Assembly (NCBI GenBank): GCA_026394015.1 | Contig: JAPKZA010000231.1 | Location: forward strand, 10,626 to 74,625 | Reading direction: 5' to 3' | DNA: 64,000 nt | Source: Acidobacteriota bacterium | GTDB taxonomy: Bacteria; Acidobacteriota; Terriglobia; Bryobacterales; Bryobacteraceae | Shown here: positions 2,583-57,750 of the stretch, piece by piece | Layout of the letters: every line of letters begins with the position of its first letter | Position numbering within the stretch: the stretch's first letter is position 1 | The notes under the pieces: model-generated | Told to the model about the DNA's origin: nothing | What the model saw: the letters and a program-made list of their open reading frames with translations, nothing else | Databases searched by the model: none | Program-made: the position numbers and the translations under genes

Positions 2583-5543
2583 TTACTGTCGGCTGCCGCG
2601 GATCCATTCGAGGATGGTTTGGTACTCGACGCTGCCGGTGCGGGCGGGCCACCGTTCGCCTCCGTTGTGGGAGGTGCGGAAGACGTCGCCGTCGGAGGTG
2701 ACGCCGGGGAGGAGGGGCTTGATGAGCAGGGGGCTTTCGGCGGGATCGTTGCGATTGACCTTGCGGGAGGCGGCGTGGAAGTTGGCTTGGGCGTCGGCGC
2801 GGAGGGGGAAACGGGCGTTGGCGGCGTGGCACATAATGCAGGAGCGGCCGTCGGCGGCGGGGCGTTCGAGGAGGGGTTGGATGCGGTCGCGGAAGAAGGC
2901 GAAGTCGAGTTGGCGAGGGGCGGTGGGTTGGGCTAGGGCTTGATGGATATTGGGGTTGCGGCGAAGGCGATCGTGTTTGCGAGTGAGGTCGAGGGCGGCG
3001 GCGCGGACGAGGGGGTCGGGGTGGCGGAGGCTGGAGAGGACGAACTCCTGGACGGATTCGAGGCCGAGGATGTTGGCGTCGGCGGGGATTTCGAAGGGCG
3101 GGGGGCGGTAGGTAAGAACGAGATCGAGGCGGAAGCGGACGCGGGCGGGGTCGAGGCCATCGAGGAGCATGCGGCGGGCGGGGCCCTGGGCGTGCTTGAA
3201 GAACTGGGTGGTCATGGCGTTGAGATTGGGGTTGGTGACGAAGCGTTCGACGGCGACCTCGACGGCGGCTTGGACGAGGGCGACGTCGGGGGAGGCCATC
3301 GCTTCGAGGACCTGGGTCCGCATGAGGGGGGCGTCGGCGATGTTGGGGAAGGCGGCGGAGGCGCGGAGGACTTCGGCGTTGGGATGATCGCGGAGGAGCC
3401 GTTCCATGACCGCTTGGAGGGGGACGTCGCGGGTGAGGCGGGAGTCGGGTTCGAGGTTGGCGAGGAGGGGGAGGAGGATGCGGTGGGCGGTGGGATTTTG
3501 TTGGCGGAGGAGGCTTGTGAGGAGGGTGGCGAGGGCTTCGGGGTATTGGTTGTCGCGGGTGAGGGAGAGGCGGCCGCGGCGGCCGGGGGCGAAGGAGTCT
3601 TCGACGGTGGGGCCGTAGAGGGGGAGGGCGTCGCGGAGGAGGGCGAGGGTGAAGTAGGGGGTGAGGGTGTCGCCGAGGGCGGTGGCGGCGCGGATGGCGG
3701 CCTCGGCTAGGGCGGGGTCGGGGAGACAGGCGAGGAGAGCTTGTTCGAGGGCTTGGTTTGCGTCGGCGAGGATTTGGGGGGCTTCGAGGTCGTTGCCGAC
3801 GCGGGGGCGGGGCGGGAAGCCGGCGACGCCGGGGACCTTGGCGAGGGCTTGGAGGATTTGGAGGCGCTGGGGGCGGGGGCCGCTGTTCAAGGCGTTGGAC
3901 AGGAGGGTGGCTTGGCGTTGGCTATCGGCGCGGAGGGCGGCTTCGACGCGGGCTTGATTTTCGGGGAGGCGGATCGAGCGTTGCCATTCGCGGAGTTGTG
4001 CGAGATTTTCGTCGAGGGTGGCGGCTAAGGCGTCGACGAGAGCGGGGGAGGATTCGAGCTTCATGCGGGCGAGGAGTTGCTGCTGGAGGGCGGGGCGGTC
4101 GGGGTTTTGCCAGGGGTCGGGTTGGGGGCGGGGGCCGGTGGCGAGGAGGGCGGGGAGGGGATGGGCGGGTTGGCGGTGGAGTTCGCTGAGGGCCATGACG
4201 GCGAACTGGGTTTCGCGGAAGGGGGTGTCGAAGCCTTTGTACTCGGGGGCGCCTTTCCAACTGCCGTCGGGGCGTTGCTGGCGGAGGGTGTAGGCGGCGA
4301 GGCGGTCGGTGGCGGGGCCACGGTGCTTGGCGACGGCGAGGGCGTAGAGGACGTGGTAGCTGATGAAGTCGGCGGGCGGGGCGTCATCTAACAAGGAACC
4401 GCGCACAACGGACTCGCTTCGGCCCGGCAAGATGGGCGAGTTCCTCGCCCGTTGGTGCCGGGCCTGCGCGGCCTGTGCGCTGTTTGAGAGGGCGAGGCCG
4501 AAGCGGCCGTCGGGTTGCTGGTGGCGGAGGAGTTCGGCGATGGCGGTAGCCGTGGGTTGGTGGAGACGGGTGAGGGCGACGATGCGCCAAGCGGCGTCGA
4601 TGGTGTTGGTGGGTTTGGTGGTCGAAAGGAGTTGGGCGATGCAGGCGGTCTTCTGGGGCCAGACGGGGTTGTGGGGTTCGGCGGCGGCGGCGAGTTGGAA
4701 GGTCTCCCAGGTTTGGAGGCCGATTTCGAAGGCGCTGACATCGGGGCGGGAACCATCGGCTTCGGGGCGGAGGGCGGCGGCGCCGCAGTCGTCGGCGAGG
4801 AGGAGGAAGCGGGCGGCTCCGAGGGTGAGGGCGCGGTCCTCGGCTGGTTGGGAGGCGGTGGCTTGGCGGTGGAGGTTGAGGAGGACGGGGAGACGGCTGG
4901 AGACGGTGCGGGCGGAGTAGATGACGCGGGCCCAGTTGACGCCATCGTGGCCGTAAAGGGGGCGGGGATTGTCGCGGAGGCGCTGCATGACGTTGGCGAG
5001 GGCTTGGGGGGCTTGTCCGTCGTGGCCGTTGCGGGCGGCGGTGAGATAGCCGCGGGTGGTGAACTGGGTGACGTGGCAGGCGATGCAGGCGCGGGCTTCG
5101 GGGTGTTGGGCTTGGTCGGGCTGCTCGATAGCTCCGTGGCGGGGTTGGTTGGAGAGCCAGGCGTCGGCGGCGCGGATGAGCCAGGAGGCGCCGGCGGTGA
5201 TGGCTTTGTGGGGGTTCTGGGCGTCGGGGGCGGGGAGGAGCTGTAAGTTGAGTTCGCCGGGTTCGGAGGAGAGGATGGAGTAAGTGACGCCCTGCCTGAC
5301 TAAGCCGGCGCGGAAGGTCCAGCGGCCGGGATGGGTTTGGGTGTTTTCGGGGACGAGGGAGCGGAGTTCTTCGGAGAGGGATTGGATTTCGAGGTTGGCG
5401 GGGAGTTGGGAGTAAGCGCGGTGGAGGGAGGCGTGGAGGAGGCCGTCGCGGGGGGCGGTGTATTGGACTGTGTGGTGGGGTGCGATGGGTTCCGCTGTTG
5501 CGATGCCTGTGGTGACGCAGAGAAACAGCAGTAGGATGCGCAT
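2583..5543 (-). CDS. Large two-haem c-type cytochrome with toroid/HEAT-like repeats
   Basis: A 986-residue exported protein. The start at 5543 gives a clean signal peptide (MRILLLFLCVTTGIATA). One haem-binding CIACH lies at residues 153-157 and a second, CIMCH, at 902-906 near the C-terminus. Between them are alpha/alpha-toroid repeats of the terpene-cyclase/prenyltransferase fold (for example LRQQRPDGSWKG), then helical HEAT-like repeats. This architecture resembles the large cytochrome proteins of Acidobacteria and Planctomycetes, most of unknown function and thought to act in periplasmic electron transfer. Residues near 360-375 are encoded by a palindromic element (separate entry) and look like an insertion: the low-complexity stretch QAAQARHQRARNSPILPG breaks an otherwise regular repeat. 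The MFS gene follows on the same strand. The exact substrate or partner is unknown. Confidence 0.75.
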   Translation of the reverse strand: MRILLLFLCVTTGIATAEPIAPHHTVQYTAPRDGLLHASLHRAYSQLPANLEIQSLSEELRSLVPENTQTHPGRWTFRAGLVRQGVTYSILSSEPGELNLQLLPAPDAQNPHKAITAGASWLIRAADAWLSNQPRHGAIEQPDQAQHPEARACIACHVTQFTTRGYLTAARNGHDGQAPQALANVMQRLRDNPRPLYGHDGVNWARVIYSARTVSSRLPVLLNLHRQATASQPAEDRALTLGAARFLLLADDCGAAALRPEADGSRPDVSAFEIGLQTWETFQLAAAAEPHNPVWPQKTACIAQLLSTTKPTNTIDAAWRIVALTRLHQPTATAIAELLRHQQPDGRFGLALSNSAQAAQARHQRARNSPILPGRSESVVRGSLLDDAPPADFISYHVLYALAVAKHRGPATDRLAAYTLRQQRPDGSWKGAPEYKGFDTPFRETQFAVMALSELHRQPAHPLPALLATGPRPQPDPWQNPDRPALQQQLLARMKLESSPALVDALAATLDENLAQLREWQRSIRLPENQARVEAALRADSQRQATLLSNALNSGPRPQRLQILQALAKVPGVAGFPPRPRVGNDLEAPQILADANQALEQALLACLPDPALAEAAIRAATALGDTLTPYFTLALLRDALPLYGPTVEDSFAPGRRGRLSLTRDNQYPEALATLLTSLLRQQNPTAHRILLPLLANLEPDSRLTRDVPLQAVMERLLRDHPNAEVLRASAAFPNIADAPLMRTQVLEAMASPDVALVQAAVEVAVERFVTNPNLNAMTTQFFKHAQGPARRMLLDGLDPARVRFRLDLVLTYRPPPFEIPADANILGLESVQEFVLSSLRHPDPLVRAAALDLTRKHDRLRRNPNIHQALAQPTAPRQLDFAFFRDRIQPLLERPAADGRSCIMCHAANARFPLRADAQANFHAASRKVNRNDPAESPLLIKPLLPGVTSDGDVFRTSHNGGERWPARTGSVEYQTILEWIRGSRQ
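4421..4464. repeat. Nested palindromic element inside the cytochrome gene
   Basis: Two nested inverted repeats: GGCCCGGCA (4421-4429) pairs with TGCCGGGCC (4456-4464), and inside it GGGCGAG (4434-4440) pairs with CTCGCCC (4444-4450) around a three-base loop. The arms match perfectly, with short unpaired AGAT and GTTGG bulges between the stems. The element is in frame within coding sequence and adds residues that look foreign to the host protein. It has the form of a REP or other miniature palindromic element. No mobility gene is nearby. Confidence 0.6.
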
Positions 5544-5597
5544 GGAGGTATTTTGGCAAATGTGGTTCGGGGTTGTCAGGAGGGGTAGGATATTGGT

Positions 5598-6188
5598 ATG
5601 GCTGCTCGGCGCATGCCCTGGATTTCCGCGGATGAGTTTTTGGATCAGGAAGCGCTGTCCGAAACGAAGCATATGTACTATGGCGGCGTCGTCACGGCGA
5701 TGGCGGGGGGGACGTTTGAGCATGGGCGGCTCGCTATGAATCTGGGCGGCCAGTTGTATGGGGCTCTGCGTGGGCGGGGTTGCGCGGTTCTGGGGGGCGA
5801 TGTGATGTTTCAGACGGGGTCGCTTCCTATGTTGACCTATCCGGATCTGATGGTGGTGTGTGGGCCGGTGGAACGTATGCAGGGTCGGCGGACGGTAATT
5901 ACGAATCCGATGTTTTTGGTGGAGGTGTTATCGCCGAGTACCGAGGGGAAGGACCGGGGGGAGAAGTCGCATGAGTATCGTTTGAGCCCGACGATTCGGC
6001 AGTATGCGCTGGTTTCGCAGGACCGGCCGCTGGTGGAGATCCATACGCGGGGGGCGGATGGGAACTGGTGGATCAGCGAAGTGATGGGCTTGGAGGCGGA
6101 GTGTGCGTTTAGTTCGCTCGAATGCAGCGTGCCGATGGCGGCGCTGTATGAGGGCGTGCTGGAAACGGGTCTAGCGGCGGGGGGCTGA
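5598..6188 (+). CDS. Uma2-family endonuclease-like protein (DUF820)
   Basis: 196 residues with the Uma2/DUF820 pattern, a PD-(D/E)XK nuclease fold. The N-terminal MPWISADEFL, the E-x-x-x-M-Y-Y-G-G segment, the acidic TYPDLMVV motif near residue 93 and the FLVEVLSPSTEG motif near residue 118 supply the expected metal-binding Asp and Glu. The length is normal. These proteins are abundant in cyanobacteria, Chloroflexi and Acidobacteria, usually as scattered single genes with no proven role. A GTAGGAT site lies before the ATG. The gene sits alone on the plus strand and its last 18 bases overlap the end of the WG-repeat gene. Confidence 0.85.
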   Translation: MAARRMPWISADEFLDQEALSETKHMYYGGVVTAMAGGTFEHGRLAMNLGGQLYGALRGRGCAVLGGDVMFQTGSLPMLTYPDLMVVCGPVERMQGRRTVITNPMFLVEVLSPSTEGKDRGEKSHEYRLSPTIRQYALVSQDRPLVEIHTRGADGNWWISEVMGLEAECAFSSLECSVPMAALYEGVLETGLAAGG

Positions 6189-7286
6189 CCTCCAGACGAT
6201 TTTGCCTTGGGGGTCGATGTAGGCGCTGGCGCCGTCGGGGAGTTGGACGGCGGCGAGGCCGTGGTTGAAGTCGGCGGCGCCGGAGAATTGATTGGGGATT
6301 TTGGGGTTGCCGGACTTGTCGAGGAAGCCGTAGGTGCCGTCGAGTTTGAAGCGGGCGAGGCCGGTTTGGTAACTATAGGCTTCGTCGTATTTGCGTAGGG
6401 GGAAGGCGAGTTTGTTCCGGGAATCGACCCAGCCGAGGAGGTCTTCCTCGCGGGCAAGGGAGAGGCCTTCCGAGGGTGGGGCGATGGGTTTGAGCTTACG
6501 CTTGTCGGGGTCTACGATTTTGCCCTGGGGGTCGATGGTGATCCACTTGGCGCCATCCTGGACCTGGGCGAAGCCGTCCTGGAAATTTTGGGCGTCGTTG
6601 AATTTGGGGGGGATGGCCCAGGCGCCGGAAGCGTCTTTGAAGCCCCAGGTGAAGCCTTCTTTGACGCGGAGGCGACCGTTCGAAAATGAGTTGGCTCCGA
6701 CGAGTTGACCACCGACCTTCATGGGGAGGCGGAGGATGATTTTGCCGGTGCGATCGAAGTAGCACCATTCGTCTTTGAGGCCGCCGAAGTTGAGGTCGGC
6801 GGGGTCGTCGGGGAATTCTCCGGCGGGCATGAACTGGGGCGGGATGACGGATTGGCCGTTGGAGTCGACGAAGCCATAGAGGGTGGGGCGGCCGGCGGCT
6901 TGGACGCGAAGGCGGCCTTGGTGGAAGGTGCCGAGGACGCGATGGGGGATATCGGCGATGAGGGCTCCGGCGGGGTCGAGGAGTGCGTATTGGGTGCTTT
7001 CGAGGACAATGGCGCGGCCTTCGTGGAAGTCGTTAGCGACGTTGTATTTGGCGGGAATGACGAGCTTGCCGGCGAGATCGACGTAGCCGGAGAGGCTGCC
7101 GAGGGTGATGCGGATACGGCCTTCGGAAGGTTCGCCGACGGCGTCGAATTGCGGGGGAACGACGACCGAGCCGGTGCGGTTGATGAAGCCGAACTTGCTT
7201 CCTTCGCGAATGGGGAAGAGGTGATCGTTCATGCGGGTTTGGGCGGTGAGGGTGGCGACGGTGAGGAGTACGTAAGCGGCTTTCAT
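6171..7286 (-). CDS. Exported WG-repeat protein
   Basis: 371 residues starting with a signal peptide (MKAAYVLLTVATLTAQ). The rest is a run of WG/beta-hairpin repeats of about 45-50 residues, such as KFGFINRTGSVVVPPQFD, SGYVDLAGKLVIPAKY, LYGFVDSNGQSVIPPQF, TWGFKDASGAWAIPPKF and TYGFLDKSGNPKIPNQF. WG repeats form beta structures that bind ligands or proteins; no enzyme activity is expected. The ATG overlaps the stop of the radical SAM/cytochrome gene (ATGA), so the two are co-translated. The protein may therefore be a periplasmic partner of that cytochrome domain, which is inference from position only. Confidence 0.8.
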   Translation of the reverse strand: MKAAYVLLTVATLTAQTRMNDHLFPIREGSKFGFINRTGSVVVPPQFDAVGEPSEGRIRITLGSLSGYVDLAGKLVIPAKYNVANDFHEGRAIVLESTQYALLDPAGALIADIPHRVLGTFHQGRLRVQAAGRPTLYGFVDSNGQSVIPPQFMPAGEFPDDPADLNFGGLKDEWCYFDRTGKIILRLPMKVGGQLVGANSFSNGRLRVKEGFTWGFKDASGAWAIPPKFNDAQNFQDGFAQVQDGAKWITIDPQGKIVDPDKRKLKPIAPPSEGLSLAREEDLLGWVDSRNKLAFPLRKYDEAYSYQTGLARFKLDGTYGFLDKSGNPKIPNQFSGAADFNHGLAAVQLPDGASAYIDPQGKIVWRSAPRR

Positions 7287-9715
7287 TTTGGGCTCTCTAA
7301 CTCGGCGAGGGTCACTTCCTTTTGCAGGCCGGTGGCGGCGAACTTCAGGAAGCCGATGATGTCGGCGAACTCCTTGCTGTCGTAGTGGGATGCGGCGGGG
7401 GGATGGAGCCACTTTTCGGCGGGTTTCATGCTTTGGATGTCGGCGGCGGCGAAGGTGCGGAGGGTGGGCGGGAGTTTGCTTAGGTCCCAGATTTCGAGTT
7501 TGTCGGAGACCTTTTGTTTTTGAATGCAGGGGAACTCGCCCTTGGTGGTTTTGACCTGCTGGACGTAGGCGGTTTCCGTGATTTCCATGGCCATGACAAG
7601 GGCGCGGGGCGGGGCGGCGGCGGCGAGTTGGGCGAGGTCGGGGCCGACGGCGGTGCCGATGTTACCGATGGAATGGCAGGTGCCGCAGGCGACGCCTTTG
7701 GGCGATTTCAGGAAGAGGGCTTGGCCGCGCTGGGCTTGAGGGGTGAGGGGCGGCCGGGTTTGGCCGAGGGCGGCGAGGGGCAGGAGGAGGATGGCGAGAA
7801 GGAGTGCGGCGGTGGCGGGGAGGACGACGAAGTGGGGCGCGGTGGGCGGTGGGTGGTTCAAGGTTTCAATTCGGCCGACGTCGAGGCGGGTGCGGAGGTA
7901 GGCGAAGTGGGTGCTGGCGAAGTCGCGGAAGTTAGGACTCGTGACGTAAGGGGATGGGGTGAAACGGACTTGGGTCGGGCGGGGGTGCTGCACACCGGTG
8001 GCCGCGTAGGTGGGCCAGTCGAGGGAGAAATTTTGGTCGATGGGTTCGGGGCGCTGCCAACGAGGGGTGATGAGGGATTGATAACGGACGACTTCGGCGT
8101 CGGCGGGGATGAGGGCCGCGGTTTCCTGCAGGAATTCGTCGTACCGGCGGAGGGCGAGGAGGGCGATGGCTTCGTCGACGGGGATGGGGGCGTCGGTGGC
8201 GGAGTCGGCGAAGGGTAGGACGAAGGGGCCTCCGGCGAGGAGGGAGTTTGTATAGCGGTCGACGGTTTGGCTGAGGTTGGCGTAGAGGCATCCGGGTGGG
8301 GCGTCGTCCATGCCGTCGGAGAGGCGTTCGAGGAGGGCTTCGAGCGGAGTGGCGGTGGTCTCGGCCGTGTGCTGGAGCACGACGCGGAGGAGGCGGAGGT
8401 TGTAGAGAGCCGCGGCGAAGTAGGAGAGGCGGAAGGCGCGGCGCCAGTCGGCGAGGGGCATGTCTTTGGTGCCGACGACGACCTCCTGGTATTCGTCGAT
8501 GATGGGATCCCAGCCGGCGGTGGATGTCTTCCATTGGCAGCGGCGAGTTTGGATGCCGAAGCGCTTGCGGGATTCCGGATCGCCGAGTTCGGTGTTGTCG
8601 ATGAGGCGGCAGAGGAAGAGCACGAAGTCATGCCGGGGGAGAGGGGGCATGGCGGTCGCGATGGTGCGGGCGAAGGATTGATAGGTCTGGCCGGGGAGGC
8701 CGAGGATTAACTCGTTGAAAGTCGGGATGCCGCGTTCGCCGCAGATGTCGCGGAGCTTCATGGCTTCGCCGGTTTGGATGTTGTCGCGTTTGACGGCTTC
8801 GAGGACGTCGTCGTCGAAATCCTGGACGGCGAGGCCGACCCAGGTGCCGATGCCGCCGGCTTGGAGGATTTCGATGGTTTCGAGGTTGCGGCCGTGGTTG
8901 TTTTTGGTGAGGTAGAAGTAGAACGTCGCGGGGAGGCCGGTGGTTTGGCGGAGTTCGACGAGGCGGCGGGCGATGGAGGTATCGCGGGGGCGGATGCCGA
9001 AGTTGGCGTCGGCGAGCATGATGTGGCTGAAGCCGTGGGCGACGACCCAGTCGAGTTCGGCGAGGACGCGGGGGAGGGGGAACTCGACGACCTTTTTGGT
9101 GAGGGACCAATCGCAGAAGGTGCAGGAGAAGGGGCAACCGCGGTTGGTTTCGAGGAGGGCCATGGAGAAGCGGTGGCGGTGGCGGGCGATGAGTTCGTCG
9201 AAGGTGCCGTCGAGATAGGGGGAGGCGGTGGGGGTGAAATCGTTGACGCGGCCGGGTGGGGCGGTGATGTGGTGGCGGAAGGCGATGCCGGGGATGTGGT
9301 GGAAGGTCTCGCCGGCGAGATGGGCGCGGAGGAGTTCGCGGAAGGTGAGTTCGCCTTCGCCGAAGGCGAGGATGTCGACGGCGGGATTGTCGGCGAGGAA
9401 GCGGCGGACGCGTTCGTCGCGTCGGGGAACGGAGGGGCCGCCGACGATGATGAGGCAGTCGGGATGGGCGGTGCGGGCGGCTTGGGCGACGGCGAGGGAG
9501 TAGGCGGCGTTCCAGGGGTAGAGGGAGAGGCCGAGGATGGTGGGGTGGCCGAGTTCGGCGACGGCTTCGGCGAGGGGGCGGCGTTCGATGACGATGGAGA
9601 ATTCGACGGCGGCGAGGGCGGGATCGACCCGGGCGGCGGCGACGAGACAGCCGGCGGCGAGGGGCAGCACGGGGGTGGCGTCGATGCCTTCGTATTGGGC
9701 GATGACGACTCGCAT
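7283..9715 (-). CDS. B12-binding radical SAM protein fused to membrane-anchored cytochrome c
   Basis: One uninterrupted frame of 810 residues. Residues 1-150 form a cobalamin-binding Rossmann domain (ILGLSLYPWN, LIIVGGPSVP, FGEGELTF). Residues 185-430 form a radical SAM barrel with the cluster motif CPFSCTFC (Cys194, 198, 201). After a further helical part, residues 628-652 are a hydrophobic segment ending LLPLAALGQ, followed by a cytochrome c domain with CGTCH at 677-681. The first part would be cytoplasmic and the last periplasmic. Two readings are possible: a true fusion, or two genes joined by loss of a stop, since TTG at 7861 (residue 619) could start a protein whose signal peptide is this hydrophobic segment. 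No ribosome site precedes that TTG. The substrate is unknown. Confidence 0.75.
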   Translation of the reverse strand: MRVVIAQYEGIDATPVLPLAAGCLVAAARVDPALAAVEFSIVIERRPLAEAVAELGHPTILGLSLYPWNAAYSLAVAQAARTAHPDCLIIVGGPSVPRRDERVRRFLADNPAVDILAFGEGELTFRELLRAHLAGETFHHIPGIAFRHHITAPPGRVNDFTPTASPYLDGTFDELIARHRHRFSMALLETNRGCPFSCTFCDWSLTKKVVEFPLPRVLAELDWVVAHGFSHIMLADANFGIRPRDTSIARRLVELRQTTGLPATFYFYLTKNNHGRNLETIEILQAGGIGTWVGLAVQDFDDDVLEAVKRDNIQTGEAMKLRDICGERGIPTFNELILGLPGQTYQSFARTIATAMPPLPRHDFVLFLCRLIDNTELGDPESRKRFGIQTRRCQWKTSTAGWDPIIDEYQEVVVGTKDMPLADWRRAFRLSYFAAALYNLRLLRVVLQHTAETTATPLEALLERLSDGMDDAPPGCLYANLSQTVDRYTNSLLAGGPFVLPFADSATDAPIPVDEAIALLALRRYDEFLQETAALIPADAEVVRYQSLITPRWQRPEPIDQNFSLDWPTYAATGVQHPRPTQVRFTPSPYVTSPNFRDFASTHFAYLRTRLDVGRIETLNHPPPTAPHFVVLPATAALLLAILLLPLAALGQTRPPLTPQAQRGQALFLKSPKGVACGTCHSIGNIGTAVGPDLAQLAAAAPPRALVMAMEITETAYVQQVKTTKGEFPCIQKQKVSDKLEIWDLSKLPPTLRTFAAADIQSMKPAEKWLHPPAASHYDSKEFADIIGFLKFAATGLQKEVTLAELESPK

Positions 9716-9757
9716 GGCTTACATGATGGCATCGATTTGAGGCTGATAGGATGAGGC

Positions 9758-10492
9758 ATGGAATTGAGTGTGGATCCGAGGGCGGACTTTGAAACGCGGG
9801 GGGCGGCGGCGTTGGGGCGGGTGTTGGATGAGGGGCAGTTGGAGGCGGTGCGGGGGGCGATGGCGGAGATGATGGAGGTGGCGGTGGAAGGGCCATACGC
9901 GCGGATCGTGCATGATCCGTGGCGGAAGTCGGCTGTGTTGGCGGGGTTAGTGCCACATTTGGGGGAAGTGACTTGCGCAGCGCTGGGGATTCCGGAGTTA
10001 GTGCTGTTCCATGACCATATGTTGTTTAAGCCTTCGGGCGGGGTGGATATGGATTGGCATCAGGACTATTCGTACTTGCCGCTGGACCGGCCGGATGGTT
10101 TGACTTTGTGGGTGGCTTTGGACGATGTTACTCCGGAGAATGGGTGTTTGTATTACTTGTATGGGAGCCATTTGTTGGGGGAGCGGCGGGCGAGTTGGGG
10201 GTTGACGGGGGAGGACGATCCAAGGGCGAGTTTGCCGCCGATGGATGTGGCGGCGGATGAGGAGGGGGTGGCGGCGGTGACGGGGGCGGGGTGCGCAATG
10301 GCGCATCATGGGAATTTGTGGCATCGGTCGCCGGCGAACCGGAGTGGACGGCCGCGACGGAGTTGGGCGTTGTCGTTTGTGTCGCCGGAGGCGCGATGGT
10401 CGCCGGGGCATTCGCCGCATCCGCGGAGTGCGGTGGAGGTAAGGAGTGAGGGGCAGGAGATGGAGGCGGATTTATTGCGGGTTAAAGTCTGA
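9758..10492 (+). CDS. Phytanoyl-CoA dioxygenase (PhyH) family protein
   Basis: 244 residues of the PhyH branch of non-haem Fe(II)/2-oxoglutarate oxygenases. The metal-binding HxD pair is in WHQDYSYLPLD near residue 97, the distal His is in HHGNLWHRSPAN near residues 182-190, and basic residues downstream (NRSGRPRRSWALSF) can bind 2-oxoglutarate. DDVTPENGCLYYLYGSH is also a family signature. The enzyme would hydroxylate a small organic substrate; which one is not visible. It is divergently transcribed from the radical SAM gene with 42 bases between them, and may share its control. Confidence 0.85.
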   Translation: MELSVDPRADFETRGAAALGRVLDEGQLEAVRGAMAEMMEVAVEGPYARIVHDPWRKSAVLAGLVPHLGEVTCAALGIPELVLFHDHMLFKPSGGVDMDWHQDYSYLPLDRPDGLTLWVALDDVTPENGCLYYLYGSHLLGERRASWGLTGEDDPRASLPPMDVAADEEGVAAVTGAGCAMAHHGNLWHRSPANRSGRPRRSWALSFVSPEARWSPGHSPHPRSAVEVRSEGQEMEADLLRVKV

Positions 10493-10521: not shown

Positions 10522-10659
10522 ATGGAATCGCTACCCTTACCCGTCTGGTGCAATCGCTCTGGAGCGCCTGTTTTTGGCTTGTGGGAGGGATTCGGAGTAT
10601 CTGAAGGATTCTTCGAACCGTTACCGGAAGAGCTACTCGAGGCCTTCCTCGGCGAATGA
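10522..10659 (+). CDS. Small 45-residue ORF, probable remnant of a type II antitoxin
   Basis: Encodes a 45-residue peptide starting MESLPLPVWC whose C-terminal half (SGAPVFGLWEGFGV then FFEPLPEELLEAFLGE) resembles the C-terminal tail of Phd/VapB-like antitoxins that pair with PIN toxins. A second short frame starts by ATGA overlap at 10656 (MNWLV...) and stops at 10748. That is how a toxin gene would begin, but it has no toxin features beyond the first residues. The set therefore looks like the debris of a toxin-antitoxin pair cut off by the paralog that follows. The call rests on short similarity judged by eye. Confidence 0.35.
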   Translation: MESLPLPVWCNRSGAPVFGLWEGFGVSEGFFEPLPEELLEAFLGE

Positions 10660-10714
10660 ATTGGCTGGTCTGCGTGAGGATTACGAGTGGTGCTTTGATT
10701 GCGGGAGATTCGGG

Positions 10715-13618
10715 GTGCAGCGATCTAACTGGTGTGAACTCGGACTAAGTCAGGGGTGGGTTGGGGCTTTGTTGCGCGGGTGGTGTGTCTTTCTGCCTCT
10801 GCTTTTACACGGGGCTAGTTTGGAGGTTAGGCCGGTGACGGTTCCGGCGGGGGCGATGGCGCAGATTCGGGTGGAGTTGGGGGCTCCTCTGGCGGTGTCG
10901 GTGGGTAGTTTGCGGGTGGAGTTGGAGGGGGCGGTGTTTGGGGAGATTGCGGACGTGCAGATGTTTAGCGCGGCGGGGGAGCTTACGGGGGCTGTGGAGC
11001 TGGATGGGCGTAAAGCGGTAGTGACGTTTTGGTCGGTGGCGAGTGGGGTTGGGCGTATTGGGGGGTGGCCGGTGATGACGGTGACGGTACCTGTTCTGGA
11101 AACTGCCGCGCCGGGGGCAAAGGGGAGGATGAAGGTGGAGGCTCTAGACTGGCGAGGTATGCCGGGGGAGCGTTTCGAGGTGGGAGAGGGGCTCGGAACT
11201 GTGACGGTAGGGGAAGCAGTCGTGATTGAATCCGTAACCCGGGTGTCCATGAGCGGTTACAAATTGACGGGAAGAGGGTTCAGGCCGGAGTCGCGGGCGA
11301 CGGGGGAGGGGATGGCCGTGGATCGGGTGACGTTCCGGTCGGGAACGGAGTTGGAAGTTACGGTAGCGGGGGAAAACGAACTGACGGGACGGATATTTTG
11401 GGTTGATGGGTCGGCGTTTGTCTATGCCCCGCGGGGGCGGGCGAACGGCAAGTGGCGGCCTTTGTTGCCGGTGCGAACGGTTTCGTCGGTAGGAGTTTTC
11501 AATGTAAGTCCGCCGCGGTATGGGGGTGGTGGGATGGTACTCGAGAATCCCAATCCGGTGGCGGTGGATGTGACGGTCGAGGTGTTTCTCGGTTCACTTG
11601 GGTTCTTGAGGAGGAAGACGACCGTTCTACCCGCGTTGGGACGGCTTGAGGTTTCCGCTTTAGTCGACTTCGGATTCGAGGTGAATGGTTCGGGTGGCCT
11701 CTTGTTTTCGTTGCCCATTCGGGCAGGGCATGTGAACTGGCAGACCAAGACGGTGGGTCGGGTTTCCGACGACTATATAGCGTTTCGACTACCGGAGCAG
11801 CCGTTCCTAATACGACAGGAGGGACCTCTCGTGTTTATGAAGCAGGTCGGTGGGCCGGAGCCGGGTTCGCAGGGAGTGAGCTTTGAGCCGAAGTTGAAGA
11901 CGCAAGAGGCGCTACCGATTGTGGTTACAACGACAGAAAAATGGCTGACCGCGGTGGCGCGGCGAGACCTCCGCGGTCGGACATTGAGCGTATCGGTGGA
12001 TCCGGCGACGCTGGCGGCGGGGGACCATTTCGCTTCGGTTATCATCACGCCGACGGAGCCGGGCTATCAGCCGCAGATTGTTCCGGTGCGTTTGGAGGTT
12101 CGAGCGGCGGAGTTCGTTCGCGCATCGCGGAGCGAGGTACGGTTGACGAGTGTGCCAGGAGGGCCAATTCCGCCGCCGGTGACGCTTACGATACGGGCAG
12201 GCGAGACGGTTGGGGTCGCGCTGACGCTACGCACGGAGACGGACGATGGTGGGAGGTGGCTGACGATTTCGGCCCCGACCGCGACTTCACCTGCGAGTGT
12301 GGAGGTTCGGGCGAACCCGGCGGGGTTGAAGCCGGGTACCTACCGGGGACGGATTGTCGTGCGGGGGCCGATCAACCTAGAGGAGGTAAAAGTTACCTTC
12401 GAAGTTGCTCCGCCGGTGCTGCCGCGGTTGCGGTTGTGGGGGCCGGATCTCTTGCGATTCTCGTATCCGGTGGGAGGGGCGCAGCATCCGGTCGACAGTC
12501 TAGTGGAGGTGTCGCCGGAGAGCACGCAATTCCTATCAGAGGTATCGACTGAATCAGGGGGAGGATGGTTGCGGGTAGAGCGAACCTTCAACGGTCTCCG
12601 GGTGGGGGCGAATCCGAGCAACCTAGTCGCCGGGATCTATCGCGGGAAGATCATCGTGCGGGCTGCCGGGTTCGCCAATGAATTGGAGGTTCCGGTGTTG
12701 ATGCGGGTGTGGAGCGGGGAGACAGAGCCGATTGTCGTGACTCCGTCGGATCTATCGTTGGGGGAATATCCCGGAACGCTCGCCGTAACTTCGCCCGGGG
12801 CTTTTGTGGAAACGACAGCGAGGGTAGAAAAACTCCCGGAAGGGTGTCGGCTGGAGATTTCCGAACGAGACAATTCCGGTGGAGGGCAAGTGGTTACTCC
12901 GGCAGCGTTTTGGGTTTCGGCATGGGCGACTGAGTGGAGGGCCAGGTGCGATGGGTCGGTTCGAGTTACGGCGGGAAGCCGGTCGGTCGTGGTACCGGTT
13001 AGCCTTGTTGTTCTCCCGTGGAGATATGTCTGGCCGAAGACTCCATCGTCGGTGAGTTCGGTGGTGAACGGCGCGTCGAATCGGTTGGGGGCCGTGGCGG
13101 CGGGGCAGTATGTGGCTCTGCATGGGGTGGGGAAGGATCGGCAGGTGACGTTTGACGGGCTGCCGGCGCGGGTTTTGTTTGAATCGCTGTTTCAGACGAA
13201 CGTGGTGGTGCCGGAGGGGGTTCGGGGAAGGTCGGCGACGACGATTCGGGTGGGGTCAGGGGAGGCGGTGACGGTGGCGGTGGAAGAGGCCGCGCCGGGT
13301 TTGTTTACCGTGGACGGGACCGGGGTGGGGCAGGGGGCGATTCTGAATCAAGACAATGCGGTGAATGCCGCGGGGCGGCCGGCGGCGCGGGGGAGCGTGG
13401 TGCAGATCTTTGGGACGGGGGAGGGGACGGTGCAGGATGTAATGGTGACGATCGGCGGGGTGGAGGCGACGGTGGTTTACGCGGGGTCGGCGGGGCCAGG
13501 GTTGTTCCAGGTAAACGCCGTGGTGCCGGAGGGGGTGACGAGCGGGGCGGCGGTGCCGGTGACGCTGCGGGTGGGGCGGTTTCTGGCGCAGGCGGGGGTT
13601 ACGATGGCGGTGCGGTGA
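10715..13618 (+). CDS. Secreted cohesin-like/BACON/TIGR03437 protein, copy A
   Basis: 967 residues from a GTG at 10715, chosen because homology with copy B starts just there, a GGGAG site lies upstream, and it yields a signal peptide ending VFLPLLLHGAS. Residues about 37-200 form a beta-rich, cohesin-like domain (VTVPAGAMAQIRVELG). The middle has three or four BACON-like beta-sandwich repeats, each with a WLT...NPAGL.PGTYRG pattern. The last 200 residues are a TIGR03437-type domain (NGASNRLGAVAAGQYV, GLFQVNAVVPEGV). No catalytic motif is seen, so an extracellular binding or structural role is most likely. It forms a tandem pair with the gene at 14124, separated by hicBA. Confidence 0.75.
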   Translation: MQRSNWCELGLSQGWVGALLRGWCVFLPLLLHGASLEVRPVTVPAGAMAQIRVELGAPLAVSVGSLRVELEGAVFGEIADVQMFSAAGELTGAVELDGRKAVVTFWSVASGVGRIGGWPVMTVTVPVLETAAPGAKGRMKVEALDWRGMPGERFEVGEGLGTVTVGEAVVIESVTRVSMSGYKLTGRGFRPESRATGEGMAVDRVTFRSGTELEVTVAGENELTGRIFWVDGSAFVYAPRGRANGKWRPLLPVRTVSSVGVFNVSPPRYGGGGMVLENPNPVAVDVTVEVFLGSLGFLRRKTTVLPALGRLEVSALVDFGFEVNGSGGLLFSLPIRAGHVNWQTKTVGRVSDDYIAFRLPEQPFLIRQEGPLVFMKQVGGPEPGSQGVSFEPKLKTQEALPIVVTTTEKWLTAVARRDLRGRTLSVSVDPATLAAGDHFASVIITPTEPGYQPQIVPVRLEVRAAEFVRASRSEVRLTSVPGGPIPPPVTLTIRAGETVGVALTLRTETDDGGRWLTISAPTATSPASVEVRANPAGLKPGTYRGRIVVRGPINLEEVKVTFEVAPPVLPRLRLWGPDLLRFSYPVGGAQHPVDSLVEVSPESTQFLSEVSTESGGGWLRVERTFNGLRVGANPSNLVAGIYRGKIIVRAAGFANELEVPVLMRVWSGETEPIVVTPSDLSLGEYPGTLAVTSPGAFVETTARVEKLPEGCRLEISERDNSGGGQVVTPAAFWVSAWATEWRARCDGSVRVTAGSRSVVVPVSLVVLPWRYVWPKTPSSVSSVVNGASNRLGAVAAGQYVALHGVGKDRQVTFDGLPARVLFESLFQTNVVVPEGVRGRSATTIRVGSGEAVTVAVEEAAPGLFTVDGTGVGQGAILNQDNAVNAAGRPAARGSVVQIFGTGEGTVQDVMVTIGGVEATVVYAGSAGPGLFQVNAVVPEGVTSGAAVPVTLRVGRFLAQAGVTMAVR

Positions 13619-13638
13619 GGGCTGACTACAATTGAGTC

Positions 13639-13851
13639 ATGAGTTTCGACGACTACAAGCTCGTGATGTATCGGAACCGACCGGATGGGTGGGTCGCGGA
13701 GATTCCTGCTATTCCGGGATGCCATGCCTTGATGCCGACTGCCGAGGCGGCTGTGAGTGAACTCGCTAAAGTGTTTCAGTTGATCGAGGAAGAGCATCGC
13801 GAGAGCGGTCTGGCCCTGCCCCTCGATACGACCGAAATCGTGCATGCCTAG
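13639..13851 (+). CDS. hicB: HicB-family antitoxin
   Basis: 70 residues with the HicB partial RNase-H-like fold: a first strand (YKLVMYRNRPDGWVAEIP), the family signature IPGCHALMPTAEAA, and a helix. It lacks a separate DNA-binding domain, so it is the short form. It would neutralise the HicA RNase encoded directly downstream, and the complex probably represses its own promoter. The 3' end overlaps hicA by eight bases (ATGCCTAG). A TACAAT sequence at 13627-13632 could be the -10 element. The antitoxin-first order is common for this family. The pair stands between two tandem secreted-protein paralogs. Confidence 0.85.
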   Translation: MSFDDYKLVMYRNRPDGWVAEIPAIPGCHALMPTAEAAVSELAKVFQLIEEEHRESGLALPLDTTEIVHA

Positions 13852-14095
13852 CGCTCGCGCGGCTGAGCTTCGGCGTGCGGCCGCCAAGCTCGGATTTGAG
13901 CGCGCTCGCAAAACTGGAAGCCACGAACGATGGCGACACGAAGATGGCCGGGCGACGACCCTTCCGATTCACGGTGGCACTGACATCGGGCCATCGTTGC
14001 TTTATCGGATTCTTGAACAGCTCGGGATCGACTTGGAAACCTTCGAGCGATTGCGGCAGGTTGATCGGATCTTGTCTCAGTTTTGTTGCGGGTGA
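13844..14095 (+). CDS. hicA: HicA-family mRNA interferase toxin
   Basis: 83 residues with the double-stranded-RNA-binding-like HicA fold. The catalytic His is in the motif KTGSHERWRH near residue 26, followed by the strand ATTLPIHGG and the C-terminal helix that recognises HicB (TDIGPSLLYRILEQLGI). HicA cleaves mRNA independently of the ribosome when freed from HicB. All key features are intact, so the pair looks functional. The C-terminus is slightly long (to residue 83), ending SQFCCG. The gene stops 28 bases before the GTG of copy B. Confidence 0.85.
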   Translation: MPSARAAELRRAAAKLGFERARKTGSHERWRHEDGRATTLPIHGGTDIGPSLLYRILEQLGIDLETFERLRQVDRILSQFCCG

Positions 14096-14123
14096 GTGGG
14101 GCTTAACGTGCTGGGCGTTTGGG

Positions 14124-16994
14124 GTGCTGCGAACTAACTGGAAGCAAAATGGATTGAGCCACGGGCGGATTGGGGCCTTGTTACGACTGGGGTGTGTCTT
14201 TCTGCCTCTGTTGGTGCAGGCGGCTAACTTGGAGGTTAGGCCAGTTACGGTTCCGGCGGGGGCGATGGCGCAGATTCGGGTGGAGTTGGGGGCTCCGCTG
14301 GCGGTGTCCGTGGGTAGTTTGCGGGTGGAGTTGGATGGGGCGGTGTTTGGGGATATCGCGGACGTACAGATGTTTAGCGCGGCGGGGGATCTGTTGGGGA
14401 CGGCGGAGTGGGACGGGCGGAAGGCGGTGGTGAAGTTTTCGTCGGTGGCGGGCGGGGTGGGGCGGATTGGGGGATCGCCGGTGATGACGGTGACTGCGCC
14501 GGTATCGGGGACGGCGGGAGCGCAGGGACGGGTGACGGTGAGCGCTTTGGATTGGCGGGATGTGGCGGGGGAGAAGTTTGTTGTGGGGGATGGGCTGGGG
14601 ATGGTGACGGTGGGGGAGGCGGTGGTGATCGAGGCGGTGACTCGGGTGGGGGCGAGCAGTTATCGGGTGACGGGGCGGGGGTTTACGGCAGAGTCGCGGG
14701 TGACGGGGGAGGGGATGAAGGTGGATCGGGTGGCGTTTCGGTCGGGGACGGAGTTGGAGGTGACGGTGGCGGGGGAGGGTGAACTGACGGGGCGGGTGTT
14801 TCGGGTGGAGGGGGCGGAGTTTGTTTATGCGGTGCGGATGGAGCCGGTCGGGGGTCGGCGGGCTTTTTTGCCGACGCAGATGTATTCCTCGGTTGAGATT
14901 GGCCGACAGGCCACGCCACTCGGCGGAGGGCCGGCGTTGTTGTTTTTGGAGAATCCGCATGCGGTGGCGGTAGAGGTAACGGGGGAGAACTTTGACCTTA
15001 TCGGGGCGCTGTCGGGACGGCAGACAATCGTTCTGCCTCCGCGCTCGCTGTCCGAGAACCTCAGGACGCTTGGATTTGAGGCTACGAGATCCGGTGGCCT
15101 GCTGGCGTCGATGCCGATTCGGGCAGCGTTTGGTCGTCCGCTAGTCGACAGCCTGTTCGCTGTTTCGAGCGGTTACGAGCCATTTCGACTGCCAGCGGCA
15201 CCGTTTTCGATTCCCTCGACACCGATTGTGTTTCGGCAATCGGGCGCGCAGACGGTAACCCTGGGCGTGAACGGGAGGACTTTTGAGGTGACCCCGATTG
15301 CGGTGACGACGACGGAGCGTTGGCTAACGGCGGGGGTAGAGCGGCAGGATTCGCGGAGTGTGAGCTTGTCGGTGCGAGCGGAGATAGGGGGGATGCTGCC
15401 GGGAGACTATTTGGCGTCGGTGGTGGTGACGCCGAAGGATCCGGGGTATGAGCCGCAGTCGATTCCGGTTCGTTTGGAGGTTCGGGCAGGGGAGTTTATT
15501 CGGTTGTCGCCGGGAGCGATAACATTGACGAGTGTGCCGGAGGGGCCGATTACGCGGGCGGCTGGTTTTGCGGTTCGGGCGGAGAATGGCGCATCAGTGC
15601 CGATCACTCTGCGGACGGAGACCGATGACGGCGGACGGTGGTTGACCGTTTCGACCGCTGCGACGACGACTCCAGCCGGGCCGGATGTCCAGGCGAACCC
15701 GGCGGGATTGAGGGCAGGGACCTATCGGGGCCGGGTTATGGTGCGAGGGCCGATCAACGAAGAAACGCTGGAGGTTACCTTGGTAGTGGCGACGCCGGGG
15801 GTACCGGTGCCGCTTCGATTGCTGTCCTTGACGCCGGGATCGCTGAATTTTTCGAGGCAAGTCCTGGCGGAGGGTGCGCCTTTGTCAATCGGCATTCAGG
15901 TGACGCCTTTCGTTGCCTCCCTCGGACTGGCGGTCCTTACGGAATCCGGTGGCGCCTGGCTGGAGGCGGTGGGTTCGGGTAGCGCGATTACGGTGACGGT
16001 GAATCCGCGCGGGCTCAATCTGGTGGTGGGGATTTATCGTGGATCGGTGAAGGTGAGCGCTCCGGGTGCGGTGAATACTTTGGAGTTACCGGTAACGCTG
16101 CGGATTTGGGGCGGGGAGACGGAGCCGCTGGTGGTGACTCCGGCGGCGGTGTCGGTGGCCGATGGGCAATCTGGAAAGTTTCTTGTGACTTCCTCCGGGG
16201 CACCACTGGAGGCTACTGCGTTGGTGGAAAAGGAAGCGAACGGTTGCGCTCTGCGTATCAATGCCTCCAAGTTGATGACTCCGGCGGAATTTTCGGTTTT
16301 TTGCGTCGGTCCGCCGGGGCGGTACGAAGGGTCGGTGCGGATCACGGCTGGAAGCCGGTCGGTGGTTGTGCCCGTGAGTGTGGTGATTGGTCCTTTGGCC
16401 TACACGGGGCTGGTGAATCCGGCGGTCGTGAACACGGTGGCTAACGGGGCTTCGAATCGGTTGGGGGCCTTGGCGGCGGGGCAGTATGTGGCTCTGCATG
16501 GGGTGGGGAAGGATCGGCAGGTGACGTTTGACGGGCTGCCGGCGCGGGTTCTGTTTGAATCGCAGTTTCAGACGAATGTGGTGGTGCCGGAGGGAGTGCG
16601 GGGGCGGTCGTCGACGACGATTCGGGTGGGGTCGGGGGAGGCGGTGACGGTGGCAGTGGAAGAAGCCGCGCCGGGCTTGTTTACCATGGACGGGACCGGG
16701 GTGGGGCAGGGGGCGATTTTGAATCAGGATAATGCGGTGAATGCCGCGGAACGGCCGGCGGCGCGGGGGAGCGTGGTGCAGATCTTTGCTACGGGCGACG
16801 GTTCTGTGCCCGGAGCGAGCGTGACGATCGGAGGCATCGGAGCACCGGTGATTTTCGCGGCGGTGACGGTGCCGGGGCTGTTTCAGGTGAACGCGGTGGT
16901 GCCGGAGGGGGTGGCGAGCGGAGCGGCGGTGCCGGTGACGCTGCAGGTGGGGCGGTTTCAGGCGCAGACGGGGGTTACGATGGCGGTGCGGTGA
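14124..16994 (+). CDS. Secreted cohesin-like/BACON/TIGR03437 protein, copy B
   Basis: 956 residues from a GTG that matches the start of copy A; a signal peptide ends VFLPLLVQAAN. Domain order is as in copy A: cohesin-like N-terminal domain, several BACON-like repeats (for example ITLTSVPEGPITRAAG with NPAGLRAGTYRGRVMV), and a C-terminal TIGR03437-type domain. The N-terminal 230 residues and the last 200 residues are nearly identical to copy A, with runs of tens of identical bases, while the central 300-700 region is clearly diverged. Recent exchange between the ends is likely. Function is probably extracellular binding; no enzyme motif is seen. The AsmA-like gene converges with an eight-base gap. 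Confidence 0.75.
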   Translation: MLRTNWKQNGLSHGRIGALLRLGCVFLPLLVQAANLEVRPVTVPAGAMAQIRVELGAPLAVSVGSLRVELDGAVFGDIADVQMFSAAGDLLGTAEWDGRKAVVKFSSVAGGVGRIGGSPVMTVTAPVSGTAGAQGRVTVSALDWRDVAGEKFVVGDGLGMVTVGEAVVIEAVTRVGASSYRVTGRGFTAESRVTGEGMKVDRVAFRSGTELEVTVAGEGELTGRVFRVEGAEFVYAVRMEPVGGRRAFLPTQMYSSVEIGRQATPLGGGPALLFLENPHAVAVEVTGENFDLIGALSGRQTIVLPPRSLSENLRTLGFEATRSGGLLASMPIRAAFGRPLVDSLFAVSSGYEPFRLPAAPFSIPSTPIVFRQSGAQTVTLGVNGRTFEVTPIAVTTTERWLTAGVERQDSRSVSLSVRAEIGGMLPGDYLASVVVTPKDPGYEPQSIPVRLEVRAGEFIRLSPGAITLTSVPEGPITRAAGFAVRAENGASVPITLRTETDDGGRWLTVSTAATTTPAGPDVQANPAGLRAGTYRGRVMVRGPINEETLEVTLVVATPGVPVPLRLLSLTPGSLNFSRQVLAEGAPLSIGIQVTPFVASLGLAVLTESGGAWLEAVGSGSAITVTVNPRGLNLVVGIYRGSVKVSAPGAVNTLELPVTLRIWGGETEPLVVTPAAVSVADGQSGKFLVTSSGAPLEATALVEKEANGCALRINASKLMTPAEFSVFCVGPPGRYEGSVRITAGSRSVVVPVSVVIGPLAYTGLVNPAVVNTVANGASNRLGALAAGQYVALHGVGKDRQVTFDGLPARVLFESQFQTNVVVPEGVRGRSSTTIRVGSGEAVTVAVEEAAPGLFTMDGTGVGQGAILNQDNAVNAAERPAARGSVVQIFATGDGSVPGASVTIGGIGAPVIFAAVTVPGLFQVNAVVPEGVASGAAVPVTLQVGRFQAQTGVTMAVR

Positions 16995-23402: not shown

Positions 23403-23476
23403 ATCGATGGACTCCTAAACGCTATGATAACACAGGGCTTTGAAACGAACTGAACCCTGGGAGCGTCGAGGTGAGT

Positions 23477-26400
23477 ATGAGAGTTCTGATCCTGCTGGCA
23501 ATGGGTGGCGCAATGTTTGCGCAAGAGCGGTATGCGGTGGTGCTGGAGGCGCCGCCGACGGCGGTGGCCCGTACTGGGCGCGCGAAGGTACTGGACTCGC
23601 AAAAGGCGATGCGGGGGGATCTGAGCCGCATGAAGGTTCGGGAGACGGGGAGCACGGAGACGCTCGTAAACGCCGTGTTTGTGGAGGCGACGGCGGAGGA
23701 GGCGCTCGAGTTAGCGGGGCGGCCCGGGGTGAAGTATGTGCAGCGGTTGCGGAAGTATAAGCGGCTGGATCAGGCGGCGTCGCAGCTTGTGCAGGCGCAG
23801 GCGGCATGGAGCGCGCTGGGTGGGGTGGAGAACGCGGGGGCGGGGGTGAAGATTGGGATTTTGGATAGTGGGATTGACCAGACGCACCCGGCGTTTCAGG
23901 ATGCCGGGTTGGCGATGCCGGCGGGGTTTCCGAAGTGTGTAGGGAGTGATTGCACTTACACGAGTAACAAGGTGATTGCGGCGCGCAGCTTTGTGGACTC
24001 TTTGGTGTATTTGTATCCGGACGACACGCGACCGGATGATTTGAGTCCACGAGATCGGGTAGGACACGGAACAGCCGCGGCGATGCTGGCGGCGGGGAGA
24101 GCGATGCAGGGTCCGGGAGCGAGTGTGACGGGGATTGCTCCGAAGGCCTATCTGGGAAACTACAAGGTTTTTGGTTCGCCGGGAATTAACGATTTCTCAG
24201 ACGATCTGGCGATTATTCGCGGGTTGGAGGCGGCGCTGGCGGATGGGATGGACATTGTGAGTATGTCGCTGGGGCAGTCGGCGGTGTGGGCACCGACGGA
24301 CCGGGGAACGATTTGCGGCAAGACGGGGCAGACGGCTTGTGACATTCAGGTGGAAGCGGTGGAGAACGCGATTCGGGCGGGGATGGTGGTGGTGGCGAGC
24401 GCGGGGAACGATGGGGATGTGGGCGGAAAGATTCCGACGTTGAACTCGATTTCGTCGCCGGGTTCAGCGCCGTCGGCGATTACGGTGGGGGCGACGACGA
24501 ACAGCCGGATTTTGGTGCAGACGTTGCGGGTGGAGGGCGGGCCGGCGACGTTGCAGCAGGTGAATGGGCGGTTGGGGAATGGGAGTAGTGTGTTGGCGGT
24601 GAATCCTTCGTCGATGGTGGATGTGGCCGGTGTGGATGGGAGCGGGAAGGCTTGTGACCCGTTGGGGACCGGTGCTTTGGCGGGCTCGATTGGGCTGGTT
24701 TTGCGGGGCGATTGTTCGTTTTTAACGAAGTTGACGAACGCGCAGCGGGCGGGTGCGGTGGGGGTGGTGGTTTATCAGGCGAGCAGCAACGGGGTGTTTG
24801 TGGCCACGGGCTTGGAGGGGACGGCGATTCCGCTGATGTTGATTGGGAATCGGGATGGGTTGGCGTTGAAGCAGTATCTGACGTCGACGCCACGGGCGCG
24901 AGTGGGCTTTGATGCGGCGCTGCGGCCGGTAAATGCGACGGCGGATGACATGGCGATTTTCAGTTCGCAGGGACCGTCGATTGGGGATGCGTTGATTAAG
25001 CCGGACTTGGTGGCCGTAGGGACGGATGTATATGTCGCGACCCAGAATTATGACCCGAATGGGGACATGTTTGACTCGTCGCGGTACCGGAGCGTGGAAG
25101 GGACGAGTTTTTCGGCACCGATGGTGGCGGGGGCGGTGGCGATGGTGAAGCAGCGGAACCCGGGGTTGGCACCGGCGTGGTTGAAGTCGGCGGTGGTGAA
25201 TACGGCGGATCCGCGGATTACGGATTTTGATTATCAAGAGCGGGCGATTGAAGCGCGGGCGATCGCGATGGGAGCGGGTAAGTTGGACGCGGGGAATGCG
25301 TTGAAGGCGACTGTGTTGGCGTCTCCGGCGACGATCTCGTTTGGTGAGTTGGTGACGGCGACGACGTTGCCGGTGACGCGAACGCTGCGGCTGCGGAATG
25401 CGGGTTCGGCGTCGGCGAACGTGCGGCTGAGTGTGGTGCAGCGGGATACGGATGCGAATGCGCGGGTGACGTTGAATCCGAGTTCGGTGACGCTGGGGGC
25501 GAATCAGGAGACGACGATTACGGTGCGATTGGAGGGCACCAAGCCGAGGGCGGGGATGTACGAGGGGATTATTCGGGTGGAAGGCGGGGGGACGCCGTTG
25601 CGGGTTCCGTACCTATATGTGCAGGGCGACAACGTGGCGTTTAACGCGTTTGCGCTGGGTGGGGATGGGTTTACGCGGGGACCGGGGCGGGGTTTGATTT
25701 TGCTGGCGAAGTTTGTGGACCAATACGGTACGCCGGTATCGAACTTACGGGTTCGTTTTCGGCCGGACGTGGGCGGGGGCGGGATTACGCAGGCTTCGCA
25801 ATCGACCGATGAGCTGGGGATTGCGGAGGCGCGGGTGACGGTGGGGGCGGCGTTAGGGCAGCAGGTGTTTTCGGTGGAGCCATTGAACGGGGGGGATCCG
25901 CGGGTGGAGTTTGTGGGGACGGTGGTGCAGGAGCCGGCGCTGCGGAGTGATGGGATCGTGAATGCGGCGAGCGGGCAATTGGGCCGGGGCTTAGCACCGG
26001 GGTCGTACATCTCGCTGTTTGGGGCTTCGTTTACGGCGGAGACGCGGGTGTTTGGGACGAACTATCTGCCGATTTCGCTCGCGAATGTGAGTGTGGGTTT
26101 CGATGTTCCGGGGCAGACGCGGCAGAGCTATCCGGGGGTGGTTTCGTTTGTTAGCCCCGGGCAGATTAATGTGCAGGTGCCGTGGGAGTTGGCGGGGTTG
26201 TCGCGGGTGCAATTGAAAGTGAGCAATGGGGAGTATTCGAGTTCGCGGTTGACGGTGGCGTTGAACGACGTTTCGCCGGCGTTCTTTGAGTATTCGGATG
26301 CGGTGAGCGGTCGGCAGTTGATTGCGGCGCTCGACCAGAATTTCGGGTTAGTGACGGGGGGGACGGCGGTGCCGCGGGGCGGGGTGGTGCAGTTGTACGC

Positions 26401-55178: not shown

Positions 55179-55183
55179 CGGCG

Positions 55184-56515: not shown

Positions 56516-56527
56516 ACTTCGCCTACC

Positions 56528-57697: not shown

Positions 57698-57750
57698 CCG
57701 ATCAGACAAGCCTATGGTATCACTCACTTTGATACTTGTTGGGGAGAAGA

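Follow-up and report, generated by a model that had tools for sequence, protein, structure and literature searches.

The closest described relatives of the protein considered here are TokK and CysS, cobalamin-dependent radical S-adenosylmethionine (SAM) enzymes which act as sequential C-methylases and in which a B12-binding domain, a radical SAM core and a C-terminal domain follow one another in this order. The residue located below the cobalt in TokK is reported to be Trp76 (PMC12667779), and the reductant under discussion for enzymes of this class is a flavodoxin system (PMC8992657). A protein with the same order of domains is encoded in a stretch of 64,000 nucleotides, referred to at its full length as the window, from an Acidobacteriota bacterium of the family Bryobacteraceae (assembly GCA_026394015.1, contig JAPKZA010000231.1, positions 10,626 to 74,625), where it is continued in frame, across a hydrophobic stretch, by a CGTCH cytochrome c. 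A sequence-only reading of the window had described this in-frame fusion with no separating stop codon, which is borne out, and had seen in it a possible new electron-transfer arrangement, which found no support: in all relatives seen, each half is encoded by a gene of its own. Apparently, the gene is a real fusion of two known kinds of protein in a single genome, and it looks like a recent accident rather than a new electron-transfer machine. With moderate confidence, we regard it as a lineage-specific fusion whose halves keep their old separate jobs, with no passage of electrons from one to the other.

The fused gene (7283..9715, minus strand, as are all of its parts; open reading frame call and translation) runs from an ATG at 9715 as one open frame of 810 codons with zero internal stops. 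Its first part, residues 1-634 (7814..9715), was delimited by Pfam, NCBIfam, alignment with relatives and structure matches as a complete cobalamin-dependent radical SAM protein. The Pfam B12-binding domain (residues 48-129; 9329..9574) scores 31.7 bits, marginally below the cut-off of 32.1, and its W68 aligns with Trp76 of TokK, while the Radical_SAM core (residues 190-353; 8657..9148) scores 54.9 bits. The latter contains CPFSCTFC (residues 194-201; 9113..9136), a CxxxCxxC motif already noted in the sequence-only reading, which we take to be the [4Fe-4S] cluster motif and of which the three cysteines (C194, C198 and C201) are invariant in all five alignment rows. TokK (PDB 7kdx/7kdy) is the best sequence match of this half (2e-68, extending to residue 598), CysS (9n1b-d) matches with 6.4e-44, and both also head the Foldseek comparison, with 22-27% identity in the structure alignments. 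The AlphaFold model used for it, built from five sequences, has a mean predicted local distance difference test (pLDDT) value of 58.8, with mostly 65-92 across residues 411-620; it is sufficient to find TokK and CysS and, as a model, says nothing on the junction or the cytochrome. Among the NCBIfam models, the KedN5 family methylcobalamin-dependent radical SAM C-methyltransferase (NF033712) fits best, over residues 16-456, with 216.9 bits, which is far under its curated cut-off of 700 and places the protein outside that family. Judged by its sequence, the first half is thus a TokK/CysS-like methylase with the N-terminal cobalamin domain and its Trp, the C-terminal domain and the cofactor residues in place.

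The extent of the methylase is defined by four relatives with a readable end, two from the same genus, one from Myxococcales and one from Planctomycetota, all of which encode it separately. The methylase of G003 stands alone and ends …RVECEARAAQLVVL, that of G014, whose gene is split across two contigs, ends …HIEELTPARFVLVPA, and those of the Myxococcales genome (identity of 61% in the best segment) and the Planctomycetota genome (57% identical) end …GLVVLPARG and …RRLAVL, each immediately before a stop codon. Their common tail accordingly closes with AQLVVL, GLVVLPARG, RRLAVL or RFVLVPA, and the window agrees with it as far as VVLPA634, reading …RIETLNHPPPTAPHFVVLPA and then TAALLLAILLLPLAALGQTRPPLTPQ. 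Because the relatives end at this matching tail, the methylase is complete to about A634 and only its stop is gone; since they continue as far as VVL or endings similar to VVLPA, the junction belongs at about residue 634/635 (window ~7813) and not at residue 618, where it had been drawn about 16 residues too early. The sequence-only reading had named stops near 7860 and two separate genes in relatives as a result that would overturn it. Relatives do have stops and separate genes, but the equivalent position of the stop is ~7813 rather than 7860, and the window is truly without one. A frameshift or base error at the junction, also considered there, is unlikely by sequence comparison: the present frame is the one in which each half matches its relatives, up to a few residues from the join, and a slip of one base could not have eliminated stop, spacer and start together. 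Overlapping genes through TTGA 7861-7858, where a stop in another frame lies beside a TTG, were likewise rejected, as the methylase tail runs past this point in the present frame in the four relatives. Six distant methylases (about 28-33% identical) are stand-alone as well and carry unrelated tails.

The second half is related to small secreted cytochromes that are encoded by genes of their own. The mature part (residues 652-810; 7286..7762; Pfam and alignment) contains the CGTCH haem-binding motif that had been reported (residues 677-681; 7673..7687) and reaches 23.3 bits against a cut-off of 21.3 for Cytochrom_C (PF00034) over residues 661-745, so that both the CxxCH motif and the family score are those of a secreted c-type cytochrome; an N-terminal signal peptide is absent, the signal core being internal, after ~634 residues. 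Its nearest relative, in G001 of the same genus, is a cytochrome alone of 177 residues (MKRSPLLILGALILPLLAPGQSKPPLTPQ…), 73-76% identical to the window half and with GGAGG ahead of its ATG. The half was aligned with 19 stand-alone relatives, namely L004 and all 18 cytochrome loci new from a scan of the order Bryobacterales, leaving out the distant L007 and L009-L020; the row for L053 took an inner ATG and is therefore without leader, and that for L036 took a farther ATG. The start codon is an ATG 21-32 codons ahead of the matched stretch in 18 of the 19 and a GTG in L053, and a Shine-Dalgarno-like site of 4-5 letters precedes it in 15, as found by a crude match. From the 36 columns conserved at 90% or more among the cytochromes, the window retains 33, the exceptions being the start Met and two positions at which Gly and Leu are replaced by C730 and F783, respectively. 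The start codon and the charged leader are thus missing, and the hydrophobic core, the likely cleavage site and the haem motif are kept. Alignments and hydropathy show the hydrophobic segment (residues 629-651; 7763..7831) to consist of the final residues of the methylase and the hydrophobic core of the former signal peptide; the 19 residues from 629 form the hydropathy peak of the protein, with a Kyte-Doolittle mean of 2.6 against 1.63 for the next non-overlapping one. A signal peptidase site, read by eye, is likely after ALG651. From these comparisons, the fusion reads as a whole methylase joined to a cytochrome from which nothing but the start and the charged leader is missing.

The cytochrome might alternatively be translated separately from the TTG at codon 619 (7859..7861), the joint frame being incidental, as the sequence-only reading had suggested. 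This TTG is the sole in-frame ATG, GTG or TTG between codons 611 and 665 and would yield a leader of 33 residues ending in the cleavage-like ALG. Nevertheless, it lies inside the tail of the methylase, so that the residues following it are those common to the four relatives, the resulting leader would have no Lys or Arg, and no stop stands ahead of it, so that the long product would be made anyway. No Shine-Dalgarno-like letters precede the TTG, in agreement with the claim that no ribosome site separates the parts and in contrast to the 15 of 19 stand-alone cytochromes with such a site; this is a weak argument, because the ATG of the methylase itself has none either. Separate initiation is not the simplest reading, and we regard it as clearly unlikely.

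A second fusion was found neither among 41 relatives, with all candidates scored, nor in the order (257 genomes, scored for three candidates each at E up to 1e-25), nor among 396 genomes of the phylum drawn from a larger group (two candidates scored, E up to 1e-60). These sets overlap (L081 is G003, L082 is G014 and L085 is G002), and given the limits on the candidates scored, distant fusions could be missed. Five methylase loci were followed by name: none of the three with a readable end is fused, L082 stops at a contig end and L085 is broken. Weak matches bridging parts of both halves occur in G030 (residues 493-710, E 8.0e-4) and G031 (508-708, E 9.7e-4), in frames of 1041 and 1093 residues, neither of which reaches the radical SAM core. 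Within the genus, the methylase or its remains were found in five of 19 genomes (the window genome G000, G002, G003, G007 and G014) and a close cytochrome in two (G000 and G001), both together only in the window genome. Some cytochrome of the same kind is present in 17 of the 19 (E up to 1e-5), only 26-34% identical except in G000 and G001; in G002, G003 and G007 these distant cytochromes lie on other contigs than the methylase. Six other genomes of the order match both halves (G133, G139, G140, G162, G199 and G238), with distant methylases (28-36% identical) and on different contigs in all six. To the proposed check whether homologues of the halves occur fused or adjacent in relatives, the answer is neither: they are separate, and on different contigs where both exist.

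These distributions bear directly on the idea of a working electron-transfer fusion, in which the cytochrome would exchange electrons with the radical SAM or the cobalamin centre. The covalent link is direct and in frame and both cofactor sites are intact, which speaks in its favour. Against it, the two families are unlinked elsewhere, their close forms do not co-occur in other genomes of the genus, and the potential of a class I cytochrome c is too positive for it to act as donor and reduce the cluster. The reductant discussed for the enzyme class is the flavodoxin system mentioned above, and a signal-type segment would put the membrane between the cofactors. Because the membrane would lie there, given the predicted topology, direct passage of electrons between the halves is unlikely, and a working fusion of this kind appears extremely improbable. 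In the one open-access library searched, no report was found of a radical SAM protein fused to a cytochrome c domain, of a radical SAM/cytochrome c gene fusion in connection with a physiological electron donor, or of anything matching the internal-signal arrangement.

An assembly error, in which reads of two loci became joined while the actual genome retains a methylase stop and a cytochrome start, has to be weighed at the flanks. The case for it is that the join is known from one draft genome of 574 contigs, that the halves are unlinked in the relatives seen and that the nearest cytochrome relative, in G001, sits without the neighbouring genes of the window. However, the join is in frame and falls among the very last residues of the methylase and within the signal peptide of the cytochrome, two unrelated genes should share no long word, and the GC content at third codon positions is alike on both sides (0.857 and 0.818). 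Moreover, G011 has homologues of both window flanks side by side, so that the contig does not obviously combine two distant places. In that genome, a homologue of the WG-repeat gene which follows the fusion in the window directly adjoins a homologue of the large genes of ~1000 residues from the other flank (window 10574-16994), and a 91% identical homologue of window gene 1294-2565 comes after it. Where the window has the genes for PhyH, methylase and cytochrome, G011 has 41 unmatched bases (L061 3356-3396); of the two tandem copies in the window, the one closest to PhyH matches as far as L061 3276 and the second as far as 3355. To judge from these alignments, the arrangement is better explained by an insertion into a genuine locus than by distant contigs joined by chance, and an assembly error is rather unlikely.

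The lineage-specific fusion would have arisen when the gene of a TokK/CysS-like C-methylase lost its stop codon and the unrelated gene of a small secreted cytochrome c lost its start codon and charged leader, resulting in a single chain of 810 residues in which the former signal sequence became an internal hydrophobic segment. In such a chain, the methylase domain would fold in the cytoplasm, the segment would act as internal signal or anchor with its N-terminal side inside and its C-terminal side outside, and haem would be attached outside the membrane; signal peptidase may cut after ALG651 and release the cytochrome. The internal signal probably still exports the cytochrome and perhaps releases it. 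The methylase half would go on methylating, perhaps together with the neighbouring PhyH dioxygenase, and the cytochrome half carrying electrons outside the membrane. A natural "polyprotein", with the cytochrome behind an internal cleavable signal that tethers the cytoplasmic methylase to the membrane, ties its yield to that of the cytochrome and possibly lets it reach a membrane-bound substrate, is well on the unlikely side. Amino-acid-changing differences are rarer than silent ones in both halves against their nearest relatives: the proportions (pN and pS, respectively) are 0.158 and 0.336 for the radical SAM half against G014 (residues 1-501) and 0.162 and 0.664 for the mature cytochrome against G001, silent sites being saturated in the comparison against G003.

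Several points weigh against this reading as a lineage-specific fusion. The selection measured mostly reflects the time before the fusion, and export would have to be achieved by an internal signal behind ~630 residues that are presumably cytoplasmic. The confidence of the AlphaFold model is low past residue 622 and across large parts of the radical SAM core, so that it does not inform the topology. Only a single genome shows the fusion, a draft in 574 contigs whose contamination is estimated at 2.41%, and the halves are unlinked in every other genome seen; G011 is no clean empty site, as it is without window genes 5598-6188 and 2583-5723, which in the window separate the WG-repeat gene from gene 1294-2565.

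The usual neighbour of the methylase is, by gene order, not a cytochrome but a PhyH-type dioxygenase, encoded divergently at 9758..10492 on the plus strand (Pfam and genus comparison). PhyH (E up to 1e-30) was found in exactly the five of 19 genus genomes with the methylase or its remains and adjoins it each time. In the metagenome-assembled genome of the Myxococcales relative (L083), a 62% identical homologue lies divergently, with ~0.8 kb between it and the methylase, whereas the Planctomycetota contig, of 7.6 kb, yielded no such homologue. The divergent pair (window 7814-10492) occupies differing genomic sites and in G014 adjoins genes matching window 55183-57727, by eye dxr- and rseP-like. 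Beside PhyH in G002, the methylase is broken, with matches only within residues 1-286 and internal stops (L025 7358-8614), and in G007 about residues 1-400 are missing before the contig ends (L026 10728-11790). This points either to a dispensable module or to poor assemblies of these genomes. Possibly, PhyH and methylase form a small tailoring module; a pairing of cobalamin-dependent radical SAM enzymes with 2-oxoglutarate/phytanoyl-CoA dioxygenases was not found in the one open-access library searched.

If the module is dispensable, as the damage in G002 and G007 may indicate, the fusion could be a step of decay in which at least one half has ceased to be useful, and the window genome indeed has a second, distant cytochrome of the same kind (C500, 31% identity). 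On the other hand, both halves are open throughout, the cofactor motifs are present and nearly all conserved cytochrome columns are kept, which makes decay very unlikely.

On its 3' side, the fusion is followed by the gene of a WG-repeat protein (6171..7286, minus strand; Pfam and sequence), which to the eye appears to begin with a signal peptide. As the sequence-only reading had it, this gene overlaps the 3' end of the fusion; its start ATG at 7286 and the fusion stop have four bases (ATGA) in common. The WG-repeat gene is present in six of the 19 genus genomes (E up to 1e-30) and co-occurs with the close cytochrome only in the window genome, so that it is no constant partner of the cytochrome within the genus. 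Its homologue in G011 (L061 3392-4391) has internal stops. The large proteins of ~1000 residues (window 10574-13618, 13875-16994 and 23471-26662) match common relatives; two of their genes stand in tandem, and G011 seems to have one at the site. Farther away, window 2583-5723 (minus strand) encodes 1046 residues with two CxxCH haem motifs (CIACH 213 and CIMCH 962); its match to HEAT repeats is weak and stays below the cut-off.

An odd pair of domains in one draft genome is weak evidence for new electron-transfer chemistry. If the join is real, it provides a clean snapshot of a gene fusion, in which the end of one protein meets the signal peptide of another almost residue for residue, and a way to ask how a cell copes with an export signal turned internal. 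The conserved divergent pair of TokK-like methylase and PhyH, seen in an acidobacterial genus and in one genome of Myxococcales, probably offers the more useful lead. With regard to the known systems, the methylase differs from TokK and CysS in that it adjoins a PhyH gene and is fused to a cytochrome. The cytochrome, in turn, shares the signal core, the haem motif and the W.HPP region near its C-terminus with the stand-alone secreted monohaem cytochromes of the order (PF00034), and it differs from them in that start codon and charged leader are gone and a methylase is joined in their place.

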